This document shows, one piece after another, positions 1 through 41,416 of a DNA stretch of 46,420 nucleotides. The translations under genes and the position numbers were made by a program. The notes under the pieces were generated by a model. The model was not told the DNA's origin and did no database searches. It saw only the letters and a list, made by a program, of their open reading frames with translations. The stretch lies in the NCBI GenBank assembly GCA_002783405.1, contig PFGG01000010.1, forward strand, positions 1 through 46,420, in the 5' to 3' direction. Origin of the DNA: a bacterium (Candidatus Blackallbacteria) CG13_big_fil_rev_8_21_14_2_50_49_14 (GTDB lineage Bacteria; Cyanobacteriota; Sericytochromatia; UBA7694). The first letter of the stretch is position 1; every line of letters begins with the position of its first letter.

Positions 1-524
1 CCTCAGGGACTTTCCCCCGCCGAACGCGTTTCAGAACAAACCTTTCAGCTTCTTCCAAACTTGGCCCTCCTGCCGATTCTCACGGCTTCAGGGCATTGCG
101 CCTTCTGCGGATCCGTTGCGCTGACCGAAGTCAGGCCCGTTTCCCTCTCGTCCTTGGCCCCTTCAGGGTTTTGCACGCTACCGAGATCGGTTGCCGTTAC
201 CGGCGCCTGCCGCTCTTGCCTTTTACTTGAAACGCTTGCGCATCTCAACCGAGACTTCAGCGGGTTTTTCCCTCTGTTTCGTGTGCCGTGCCTTGCGGCC
301 CGACTTTACCCTCTTGGGTGTTCGCCCTTCAGGGTTTTCTTCCTGCCCGGAGACTGCCACTGCTTCCAGTGGGTTCCCTGCTTTCCGTTTCGACGGCACT
401 CAGGTTTTGCTCCCCGGTCAGGCTGGCTTCTCTCAACTTGCGTTGAACGCCGCCCCTCTTGGGTTTCTCTCCGGGGGTTGCACCCGGAACCTTTGTTACG
501 CTTCTTCGCTTCACCGAAGTTCGT
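1..524 (-). ncRNA. Large structured RNA, copy 1 (3' part beyond window)
   Basis: GC-rich non-coding region read on the minus strand from a near-consensus promoter (531-560). It aligns colinearly with the plus-strand element at 40713-41354. Shared landmarks are a 5' segment beginning GAAGAAGC (500-507), a hairpin with loop GAAG in RNA sense (357-372), a CCG-GTAA-CGG GNRA hairpin (189-207), a UUCG hairpin (121-134) and a hairpin module with a GAA/AGG internal loop (64-94). Each paired element differs in sequence from its partner copy but keeps pairing. Related CCCTGAA...AAGAGGG-type modules lie at 309-334, 377-404 and 143-168. Frames that happen to be open here have low-complexity, unrecognisable products, so I treat them as non-coding. 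By comparison with copy 2, roughly 200 nt of the 3' domain should lie left of position 1. Function unknown. Confidence 0.75.
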
Positions 525-530
525 ATACTC

Positions 531-560
531 AAGATACTAAGAAAAGGTTATGAATGTCAA
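531..560 (-). promoter_or_regulatory. Sigma70-type promoter of RNA copy 1
   Basis: On the minus strand, a perfect -35 TTGACA (complement of 555-560) is followed after 18 bp by TATCTT (complement of 531-536). This predicts a start near 524, just before the first conserved hairpin (CTTCG/CGAAG) of the RNA. The rest of the spacer up to the divergent gene at 743 (about 561-725) is AT-rich, and I see no gene in it. Confidence 0.7.
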
Positions 561-9074: not shown

Positions 9075-10057
9075 TCCACCACCGCTACCAGAACAGATTC
9101 ATTCTGAGCATAGGATTCACCCGCAGCCGGATAGGGAATTTCAAAAGCTCCCTTTTTCCAAATCGTGCGCTTTTGTTGAACCAATTCTTCAATCTGCTCA
9201 AGAGAAACCCCCATGGCATCATTGTGCCCAACCATCCAAAGGCGAATATGCTGGCATTTATCCAGGAATTGTGACAAAGCCTGTAAATAGCTGTCGGGGT
9301 CGTGAAAGGGCTGCCCCAATTTGGCCTGTTCTGAAGGGGGCAAGATGCCCTCTAAATTAATCTGCGGGGTTCGCCGGGTCCAACATTCAGCCAATTCGGT
9401 TTTGCGATTGGTATTGCGCAGCCCATTCATGCCTGGTGGGTAGATCCAGATCAGGCTGTCTTGGGGTAAATCAGGCACCAACTCATAGGCATCCATGCAA
9501 TAGGAGACATTCGGCATTTGGTTGTCACAGACAAAATGATTGACCTGCTGAACATAATGCTTCAGAACCTCCTGTGCGGGCAGAGGTTTGGGCTGTAAAT
9601 AACTTTGATTATAATTCAGCCAATAGTTCATGGTGAGATAGACTGCATGGTAGGCCAAAGCCTTTAAATTGGCATTTTCACTGAATTCAGGGTAGGTATT
9701 GATATTCTGCCACCAAGCCCCCAACCAGGAGGCTTCATCCTTGGTGAAATAGTGATCTCCCCAAGCTTGAAACAGGGCATGTACAGAAGAATCCGTGGGC
9801 GCAATCATGGCCTGGTAATGTTCCGGGGTTAAAAAATCTGAACTGTTTTCAATCGATGCGCGGTTGCGCCAATAATGTGTCTGAAGAACATCACAGGCAA
9901 AAACTTGAAAGCCTCTGCGCTTAAAGAAAAGGGAAGCACGTCCTGCACCGGCAAAAGGGTCACAAAAAAGCGTAAATTCTATCTGGGCATCGGTCAATTC
10001 CTGCCAAAGCCAACCTCCAAGTGCACACTTGGAACTGTCAAGAGCGCTCATCATCAT
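9071..10057 (-). CDS. DNA-methyltransferase-like protein with altered catalytic motif
   Basis: The 328-residue protein carries an AdoMet motif I-like FCDPFAGAGRASLFFKRRGFQVFACD (about residues 31-56), as in D12-class adenine methyltransferases. The expected catalytic (D/N)PPY is replaced by IYPPG (SLIWIYPPGMNG, near residue 205), so base methylation is doubtful. The C-terminus has a strand (IRLWMVGHNDAMG) where the last methyltransferase strand would be. No restriction partner is present. Instead it leads, with a 4-bp overlap, into the DUF4388, roadblock and MglA genes. The ribosome site is AGGAAGGGA. Confidence 0.6.
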   Translation of the reverse strand: MMMSALDSSKCALGGWLWQELTDAQIEFTLFCDPFAGAGRASLFFKRRGFQVFACDVLQTHYWRNRASIENSSDFLTPEHYQAMIAPTDSSVHALFQAWGDHYFTKDEASWLGAWWQNINTYPEFSENANLKALAYHAVYLTMNYWLNYNQSYLQPKPLPAQEVLKHYVQQVNHFVCDNQMPNVSYCMDAYELVPDLPQDSLIWIYPPGMNGLRNTNRKTELAECWTRRTPQINLEGILPPSEQAKLGQPFHDPDSYLQALSQFLDKCQHIRLWMVGHNDAMGVSLEQIEELVQQKRTIWKKGAFEIPYPAAGESYAQNESVLVAVVE

Positions 10058-12069: not shown

Positions 12070-12123
12070 GAACAAAGCTTTACATGAATAGATTGAAAGA
12101 TACAGGCACAAAAAAATAAAAAG

Positions 12124-12197
12124 TCGGAGCGACTGGATTCGAACCAGCGACCTGATGGTCCCGAACCATCCGCGCTACCAAACTGCGCTACGCCCCG
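12124..12197 (-). tRNA. tRNA-Pro (anticodon CGG)
   Basis: A complete cloverleaf on the minus strand. The acceptor stem CGGGGCG pairs with CGCTCCG plus discriminator A. The anticodon stem GATGG/CCATC has loop TTCGGGA (anticodon CGG), and the T arm has GGTTCGAATCC. CCA is not encoded. The transcript runs into a T-rich tract (12108-12120). Confidence 0.95.
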
Positions 12198-39470: not shown

Positions 39471-40680
39471 ACTGCTCAGACTTTTCAAAGCCAAACAGAT
39501 TGAAATCAGTTTGCGCAATGGGGAATTGCATCTCAAGGCTCCCAAGGGCGCACTTTCGCCAGAATTACAGAATCAGATCAAAGCCCAGAAACAAGCTCTG
39601 ATCGATCATTTAAAAGCTGAAAAGCTTGATTTCAGCCTGTTTTTTTTCGGCAAAGCCGAAGATACGCAACCCCAAGGCGCCTATGAGCTGCTCTTTCGCG
39701 CAGCACAATTTGCTGAAAAGCATGGTTTTTGTGGAATCTGGACCCCTGAACGCCATTTTGACAGTTTAGGTGCTTTTTTTCCCAGCCCTGCGGTTCTCGC
39801 TGCCGCTTTGGCACGTGAAACAAAACACATGGCCTTAAGAGCTGGAAGTGTTGTTTTGCCCCTTCAAGACCCGATTCGCGTCGTGGAAGAATGGTCGGTG
39901 GTCGATCATCTCAGTTCAGGCCGGGTGGAGCTTTCTTTTGCCACAGGCTGGCACAGCAACGATTTTGCCTTGGCACCCGAAAATTACAGAGACCGACATC
40001 AAATTCTCTATAATCGCTTGCAAGAGGTACACAAACTCTGGCGAGGCGAAAGCATTCCCCGCCAAGAGGGCAGTGGCAGCCAGATTCAAGTTCAAACTTA
40101 CCCCAGACCCCTACAGCCAGATTTGCCAGTCTGGTTGACCGCCATTGGCAATCCCGATTCCTATCGCAGAATTGGGGCATCTGGCTCCCATTTGCTCACC
40201 TGTCTGCTGGATCAGGAGGTTGAAGAATTGGCCGAAAAGCTGATTCTTTACCGCCAGGCCCTTTCTGAAAATGGATTTGATCCGCAAAAGTATAAGGTGG
40301 GTGTCTTTTTACATACCTTCCTGGGTCATGAGCTTGAACAAACCCGCAGAGAAGTCGAAGCCCCCTTCAAATCCTATCTCAAATCTACGCTGCATTTATT
40401 GGGAAAATTAAGTCACAGCGCGGGCCTCAATATAGATCCCTCGCATTTTGATGCCGAAGAAGAAGCTGCTCTTTTGGATTTTGCTTTTGAACGCTATTTT
40501 TCAAGAAGGGCCTTGATGGGAACTCCCGAAAGCGTCCAGCCGCTACTGGCACAGCTCAAAGCTGCAGGTGTCAATGAAATTGCCTGCTTAATGGATTTTG
40601 GCCCCACCCCAGCTCAGATCATGCGCAGTTTGGAGTTGATCAGCCCGATGATTTCAGAAGGAATTCATCAGAGGGCTTGA
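39454..40680 (+). CDS. LLM-class flavin monooxygenase with TubC-type docking domain
   Basis: 408 residues from GTG 39454, where GGAGG lies 6 nt upstream; upstream ATG frames would intrude further into the ACP gene. The N-terminal 50 residues (LFELLRLFKAKQIEISLRNG, then ELHLKAPKGALSPELQNQIK) match the TubC N-terminal docking domain seen on NRPS/PKS subunits. The rest is a luciferase-like monooxygenase: KLDFSLFFFGKAE, GFCGIWTPERHFDSLGAFFPSPAVLAA, GSVVLPLQDPIRVVEEWSVVDHLSSGRVELSFATGWH. It resembles the MupA/Atu3635 group linked to polyketide and peptide synthesis. It probably oxidises the carrier-bound acyl chain. Confidence 0.88.
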   Translation: MSSLFELLRLFKAKQIEISLRNGELHLKAPKGALSPELQNQIKAQKQALIDHLKAEKLDFSLFFFGKAEDTQPQGAYELLFRAAQFAEKHGFCGIWTPERHFDSLGAFFPSPAVLAAALARETKHMALRAGSVVLPLQDPIRVVEEWSVVDHLSSGRVELSFATGWHSNDFALAPENYRDRHQILYNRLQEVHKLWRGESIPRQEGSGSQIQVQTYPRPLQPDLPVWLTAIGNPDSYRRIGASGSHLLTCLLDQEVEELAEKLILYRQALSENGFDPQKYKVGVFLHTFLGHELEQTRREVEAPFKSYLKSTLHLLGKLSHSAGLNIDPSHFDAEEEAALLDFAFERYFSRRALMGTPESVQPLLAQLKAAGVNEIACLMDFGPTPAQIMRSLELISPMISEGIHQRA

Positions 40681-40706
40681 AACCGCCCTTCATAAAATGC
40701 AATAAT
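40677..40706 (+). promoter_or_regulatory. Promoter of RNA copy 2
   Basis: TTGAAA (40677-40682, overlapping the monooxygenase stop), an 18-bp spacer, and AATAAT (40701-40706). The predicted start is near 40713. Confidence 0.6.
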
Positions 40707-40712
40707 CAGATC

Positions 40713-41354
40713 AGCTGAGTACTTCTGCCTGCCAGGAAGAAGCACGACAGAGGCCCTGGTGAAAACCCAGGCCAGAAAGCTCATGAGGGTTTGTCTTAAT
40801 GACCCATCTCTAAAGTGGTCAAAACCTTGAAGTTGTCAAAACAGCAAGAGGGTCCTTTCCTGGAAGCAGGAAACACACTTTAAAGAAGGAAAACCCTGGA
40901 GAGCCAAAATACCAAAAAGGGAAGGCTGATTCAGCCTCGCTGTGCTTGAGGAAAAAGCCTTGAAGTCGTCAAAACGGCAAGAGGGCAAGGTGCCGGAAAC
41001 GGTAACCAATTCAAGCATGGAGTAAACCCTTAAAGGGAAAATTACAAAAGGGGAACTGGTATTGGCTGCGCCAATACGAAGGACTCTTACAGGGTGCAAA
41101 GCTCTGAAGTCGTCAAAACGGCAAGAGAGCCAAGCTGCTGATGGGTTGAAAGGTCTGTTGGCAGAAGACTGTAAGAGGGGAACCCCCTAAAGTGAACAAA
41201 AACCTTGAAGAAGGATCGCATGCGATAGCCTCTCCGGGCTGAAACCGTCAAGGGCGAAGCCAAACGCCGAAGATGGAGGCCACTCCTGAAATGGGTGGCG
41301 ATCGGAGCAGGTAAAAACTTCAGGAAGGTGGCGTGAAAATAAACTGGCAGGTAG
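40713..41354 (+). ncRNA. Large structured RNA, copy 2 (complete)
   Basis: A 640-nt region without a credible ORF. Its two ends pair: 40724-40735 with 41343-41354 gives 12 bp including one G-U. Inside are three hairpin modules of one design (40824-40853, 40957-40986, 41101-41130): outer stem, 3x3 GAA/AAG internal loop, inner 5-bp stem, CAAA loop. The inner pair C-G in the second module is T-A in the first. Further hairpins are 40856-40873 (GAAG loop), 40989-41007 (CCG-GAAA-CGG) and 41059-41077 (8-bp stem). All have counterparts in copy 1 with compensatory changes. The 3' domain (41200-41340) has more short stems. No terminator is visible before the Nudix gene. Not recognisable as RNase P, tmRNA, 6S or SRP RNA. 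Confidence 0.8.
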
Positions 41355-41416
41355 ACAGTGTTCCGCGTTGGGGCGGATTTAGAATGAAACTGCTTAAACA
41401 CTCAGGAGTCAGTGAT

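Follow-up and report, generated by a model that had tools for sequence, protein, structure and literature searches.

Homologous structured domains in tandem within one RNA occur in tandem riboswitches (e.g., glycine), which are cis leaders of related genes and contain two small aptamers. Only a handful of large ornate RNAs are known from bacteria, three of which were lately found to form RNA-only assemblies. ROOL is described as abundant and as an RNA-only octameric cage, and GOLLD as an RNA-only 14-mer cage (PMC12286853). OLE is a stand-alone structured RNA of about 600 nt that forms an RNP with Oap proteins (PMC9723947).

The window, i.e., the whole stretch of 46,420 nucleotides that we analyzed, contains two copies of a large RNA, W1 on the plus and W2 on the minus strand. 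The original prediction had read them as diverged copies of one ornate RNA. All refutation tests that ran came out in favor of this RNA interpretation, which is hence supported; an internal triplication, a multi-copy family and a restriction to one lineage had been absent from it. We are all but certain that the two copies belong to a family of large structured noncoding RNAs in which homologous units are arranged in tandem. The RNA fulfills the criteria for a large ornate noncoding RNA, i.e., more than 500 nt, an elaborate covarying structure, no ORF and a stand-alone gene, the transcription of which is inferred. W1 had been proposed to end at 41354, but its closing helix carries it on to about 41364. 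For W2, a span of 524-1 had been given; the start holds, whereas position 1 is no true end, as W2 stops there only because the contig does. In the following feature lines, the models R1 and R2 were trained only on unit 1 and only on unit 2, respectively, and their E-values are rough because calibration was shortened. For the window-free profile, only copies from outside the window were used.

40677..40706, plus strand: sigma70-like promoter upstream of W1 (TTGAAA, 18 nt, TG-AATAAT), matching the NUDIX-gene promoter at the empty site in genome G001
40713..41365, plus strand: W1, complete copy (window-free profile E 9.4e-80; fold z = -7.1)
40716..40736, plus strand: 5′ strand of helix P1, 19 bp with 41343-41364, duplex -28.8 kcal/mol
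40753..40773, plus strand: hairpin P3 of W1, GCCCTGG-loop-CCAGGC, alignment columns 49-53/78-82 with compensatory changes
about 40777-40790, plus strand: 5′ part of the closing arm of W1 unit 1, upstream of unit 1 proper
40802..40926, plus strand: W1 repeat unit 1, three-way junction (R1 91 bits, part of the R1 training set; R2 53 bits, E 1.5e-12)
40935..41060, plus strand: W1 repeat unit 2 (R1 64 bits, E 4.6e-16)
41079..41216, plus strand: W1 repeat unit 3 (R1 30.8 bits, E 1.5e-6; R2 29.7 bits, E 4e-6)
41224..41352, plus strand: W1 probable repeat unit 4, weak (R1 E 0.02, R2 E 0.015), in register
41343..41364, plus strand: 3′ strand of W1 helix P1, partner of 40716..40736
531..560, minus strand: sigma70-like W2 promoter (TTGACA, 18 nt, TATCTT per scan), conserved upstream of subfamily-A relatives
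1..524, minus strand: W2, 3′ part lost at the contig end (window-free profile E 2e-124)
302..427, minus strand: W2 repeat unit 1 (R1 122 bits, training set; R2 31 bits, E 1.8e-6)
136..286, minus strand: W2 repeat unit 2 (R2 140 bits, training set; R1 31 bits, E 1.3e-6)
1..116, minus strand: W2 repeat unit 3, cut short at the contig end (R1 22.9 bits, E 2.6e-4)

Genome searches and covariance models yielded at least 25 copies in five genomes, W1 and W2 among them, all from one family of Candidatus Sericytochromatia. This class of the Cyanobacteriota/Melainabacteria group comprises non-photosynthetic relatives of cyanobacteria. The source genome G000 has six copies (W1, W2, C70, C65 twice and C44), compared with ten in G001, seven in G004 and one each in G002 and G003. 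Additional family fragments lie at contig ends and, as many contigs terminate within a copy, true copy numbers are probably higher. The RNA measures roughly 650-800 nt, the gene family as a whole covering about 640-930 nt, and identity between W1 and W2 is 60% across the positions that align. The window-free profile recovered both of them, and their similarity is therefore independent of the window.

No match was found in the 13 other genomes of class Sericytochromatia, and a covariance-model search of a further 381 genomes from the phylum gave none with E ≤ 0.001. When we scanned 84,980 GTDB species with a sequence pattern, matches in the Candidatus Sericytochromatia MAGs MAG_89, SP350_1.003 and T60_A2020_004 were genuine copies, and beyond the Sericytochromatia copies none stood up. 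Matches in Streptomyces, Pseudomonas, Bacillota, Desulfobacterales and Acidobacteria were rejected as chance by the covariance model. The pattern would match about 70% of known copies, so distant relatives could be missed. Neither a DNA search of phage and plasmid collections nor pattern scans of viral contigs gave a copy. No relevant paper on structured RNAs in Sericytochromatia or Melainabacteria was found, and the RNA family is previously undescribed.

W1 had a predicted folding energy of -245.5 kcal/mol, and none of its dinucleotide shuffles was equally stable. The RNAalifold consensus of 23 copies contains 134 pairs, 99 of which have at least one compensatory change on both sides. Ranking of 232,903 column pairs by APC-corrected covariation placed 19 consensus helix pairs among the top 20, and 15 of these 20 were also present in the single-sequence minimum-energy fold of W1. 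Pairs predicted from W1 were canonical in 72% of cells of the other 22 copies, compared with 38-50% when the partner was slid by 1-3 columns. Helix P1 joins the 5′ and 3′ ends with 16-22 bp in all 21 copies having both ends; its mean energy was -26.9 kcal/mol for matched strands and -18.1 kcal/mol for strands mixed between copies. The P1 sequence of W1 is unrelated to that of the other copies, yet 19 pairs form. The shape of the RNA is clearly conserved by evolution. Homologues in the genome and its relatives, covarying far above controls, were what the original prediction had asked to be looked for.

Full-length R1 matches in W1 start at 40802, 40935, 41079 and, weakly, 41224, i.e., with spacings of 133, 144 and 145 nt, and this unit series recurs in most other copies, in order and on one strand. 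The best R1 match outside the RNA elements reached only E 0.2. R2 recovered unit 1 from virtually all copies (E 4e-14 to 8e-5) and, from the majority, unit 3 as well; one R2 match outside the elements (window 9891-9993, E 0.024) scored about like the unit-4 matches. When 58 unit matches were aligned together, 92% of cells were paired and covariation was 0.60, compared with 0.18 when shuffled and at most 0.13 when slid, where the alignment had been fitted to the model structure and hence leans towards it. From the reciprocal recovery by R1 and R2 and the joint covariation we conclude that units 1-3 are homologous. Unit 4, the helices of which covary (columns 876-886/1117-1127), is a probable but weakly supported homologue. 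As judged by sequence comparison, the RNA is internally repetitive, which is new relative to the original prediction, and its three, probably four, units of ~130-145 nt arose via tandem duplication.

Each unit is a three-way junction of hairpin A, hairpin B and a closing arm. A 3x3 internal loop, 5′-U[GRA]R / Y[ARG]A-3′, lies both in hairpin A and in the closing arm and recurs about eight times per RNA. It closes units 1-4; units 2 and 3 also have it in their hairpin A, where units 1 and 4 carry variants of it. The loop of hairpin B is GNRA in units 2 and 3 and GAAG in unit 1. Onto this architecture we could map all five hairpin comparisons with which W1 and W2 had been proposed to be homologous, and the two sides of each fall into shared columns when the 23 copies are aligned. 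Hairpin B of unit 1 accounts for TTTCCTG/CAGGAAA versus CCACTG/CAGTGG with the GAAG loop kept, the GNRA loop of unit-2 hairpin B for GAAA versus GTAA, and P3 for CCTGG/CCAGG versus CCGGG/CCCGG. The remaining two are in unit 3, i.e., GTATTGGC/GCCAATAC versus CTGAC-TTCG-GTCAG in its variable arm and 41101-41130 versus 94-64 in its hairpin A. Columns 638/861 of the alignment form a non-canonical internal-loop pair in which A.A and G.G switch in concert; this covariation suggests a specific, putatively isosteric contact in the recurrent loop.

On the function of the RNA we can only speculate. That it works in trans as a modular scaffold or particle seems to us an even call, in the absence of transcript, protein partner or 3D data. 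This inference rests on analogy with OLE, ROOL and GOLLD and on ruling out a coding role, the known families of ribozymes and cis-regulation as a general role. P1 closes the ends around a hairpin and the chain of three, probably four, homologous units, and the GRA/ARG loop together with GNRA and A-rich segments may pack the units against each other, a packing that is inferred. Alternatively, the repeated loop might bind one protein several times. The outcome would be a particle with pseudo-symmetry, made of RNA alone or as an RNP, whose role would resemble that of OLE, ROOL or GOLLD, and the 6-10 divergent paralogues per genome could provide dosage or mixed assemblies. Only tentatively do we propose a new architecture in which one transcript would form a pseudo-symmetric particle from four three-way-junction units with a GRA/ARG tertiary module and co-assembling paralogues. 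If true, this would be the RNA analogue of a tandem-repeat protein.

A selfish RNA gene or non-autonomous mobile element, the transcript of which must fold for copying or moving, is unlikely but deserves consideration. W1 separates the start codon of a NUDIX gene from its promoter, and the three genes concerned lie side by side in G001, spaced by about 80 nt with a matching NUDIX promoter and no RNA. W1 was hence either gained in G000 or lost in G001. Such a site, occupied in one genome and empty in the other, would suit an element duplicating for its own sake, as would up to ten copies per genome, the recent, nearly identical copies in G001 (C29, C31 and two in C53), the many contigs ending inside copies and the internal-deletion relics in G001. 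What was duplicated, however, includes about 60 nt of upstream DNA with the TTGACATTCATAACC promoter, shared by the subfamily-A copies, which reverse-transcribed RNA would not carry. Moreover, we noticed no ORF or terminal inverted repeats (target duplications were outside the analysis), and several loci are held at the same place between genera. Conserved loci are C65b and g1C8 (both flanks), C70 and g1C56, and, across genera, g2C122 and g4C637 at a HIT gene with 72% identity. Finally, old diverged copies with 55-62% identity, W1 included, all retain compensatory pairing.

The relics with large internal deletions are found at L069:5829-5701, L061:6888-6703 and L062:8109-8165, and some retain the promoter and a terminator-like end. 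Toxin-antitoxin-like genes (HepT-like, PIN) are interspersed with copies and a relic at G001:C29 (L061). A separate element of ~45-50 nt, GTTGGYGACGYAAGGARCCTTACRAATGARGAYAGC, occupies different hairpin loops of the RNA; its sites are G001:C31:10894, C53:2519 and C40:65718, G004:C226:2878, G000:C35:318611 (L161) and G003:C252:4701 (L163). It is also present, apparently in frame, inside a transposase-like ORF (GEG-[TSVVSDARNLTNEDSIDE]-WKVRQHG) and in a second ORF (SVVGELTSLTNEDSS). Its presence in protein genes too led us to reject this conserved insert as an RNA domain and to favor a small mobile element instead. Like Rickettsia palindromic elements, it is tiny, apparently mobile and found in RNA and protein genes.

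Quite unlikely is a cis-acting leader, e.g., a tandem aptamer array controlling the next gene. The next ORF is on the same strand in 15 of 22 copies, and tandem homologous domains resemble tandem riboswitches; yet it is on the opposite strand in the other seven, and the downstream genes are unrelated (transpeptidase, SnoaL, GNAT, Band 7, BNR, AAA, NUDIX, HIT). On these grounds a general cis-regulatory riboswitch role was rejected. No neighbor gene common to the copies was seen, where Oap genes were not specifically queried. Sequence predictions give most copies their own promoter and, at the end, P1 followed by a terminator-like T-run, just past which the subfamily-A homology stops; this ending speaks against a leader. 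A clear T-run after P1 is missing in a few copies, i.e., W1, g2C122 and g1C8. W1, which lies ahead of the NUDIX start codon, and g2C122, which like g4C637 precedes the HIT hydrolase gene, run towards a same-strand gene and could hence be leaders. Good promoters had been predicted for both window copies; W2 indeed has its own of the TTGACATTCATAACC type, common to its relatives, whereas for W1 the site is the counterpart of the downstream NUDIX gene's promoter.

The possible-leader copies (window:41417; L076:2248, L078:6554) precede NUDIX or HIT genes, both nucleotide-cleaning hydrolases, and this downstream theme is probably a coincidence. On the other side of W1, at window:39207-40680, an ORF with TubC_N docking and luciferase-like monooxygenase parts follows an ORF resembling an acyl carrier protein, and the ORFs just before W1 are possibly the end of a natural-product cluster.

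A ribozyme or intron-like RNA, be it a group I/II intron that has degenerated and lacks an ORF or a catalytic class not yet known, would also be in keeping with how large the RNA is, with its elaborate fold, its many copies and its A-rich internal loops, which are strongly conserved. We consider this very unlikely, as Rfam intron and ribozyme models gave no match even at permissive thresholds, including no catalytic core or domain V match to group I or group II introns at gathering or permissive scores, and as the copies are intergenic, with own promoters and with ends closed by P1 ahead of the T-runs. In accordance with the original prediction, which knew of no matching family, Rfam 15 gave no gathering-score match of the window RNAs and ten other loci to any family, including ROOL, GOLLD, OLE, HEARO, raiA, RNase P, tmRNA, 6S and SRP; at a permissive threshold (E up to 5) only chance snoRNA and lncRNA fragments appeared. 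Without a matching Rfam family, the RNA is therefore filed under a descriptive kind only.

The absence of ORFs had been claimed as well, and this stands for the sense strand (no ORF of at least 80 aa in W1 or W2), but not for the antisense strand, where ORFs reach 179 aa in W2 and 254 aa in relatives. Conserved antisense protein genes in place of the RNA, to which these ORFs overlapping several copies might point, are already refuted by the indels between copies, 61 of 74 of which have lengths not divisible by three and break the frame. In addition, the ORFs are not colinear, base-pair covariation dominates and the T-poor sense strand alone removes antisense stop codons.

A multi-copy, one-lineage family with duplicated units shows how giant RNAs can grow. 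It is a natural modular system from which a single unit can be separated for study, and the same fold with independent sequence makes structure determination and design rules directly testable. Like ROOL, the RNA is about 650 nt long and noncoding, with an ornate multi-helix fold and unknown function; unlike ROOL, which is tied to phage or prophage and to another phylum, it is chromosomal, multi-copy and built of tandem homologous units. The RNA does not have the ROOL- or GOLLD-like phage or prophage setting near tRNA islands, as judged by the phage, plasmid and viral collections, which gave no copy, and by the window, whose single tRNA is at 12123-12197. With GOLLD it shares the very large ornate bacterial type and variable peripheral arms, but no tRNA array was seen adjoining the copies, there is no Rfam match, and GOLLD is not known to contain repeated internal units. 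OLE, found in Gram-positive extremophiles and anaerobes, is likewise a stand-alone large structured RNA, from which the Sericytochromatia RNA differs by the lack of an Rfam match and of a common neighbor gene. In contrast to tandem riboswitches, its neighbors are unrelated or on the opposite strand, and it assembles three to four large units behind one end-closing helix.
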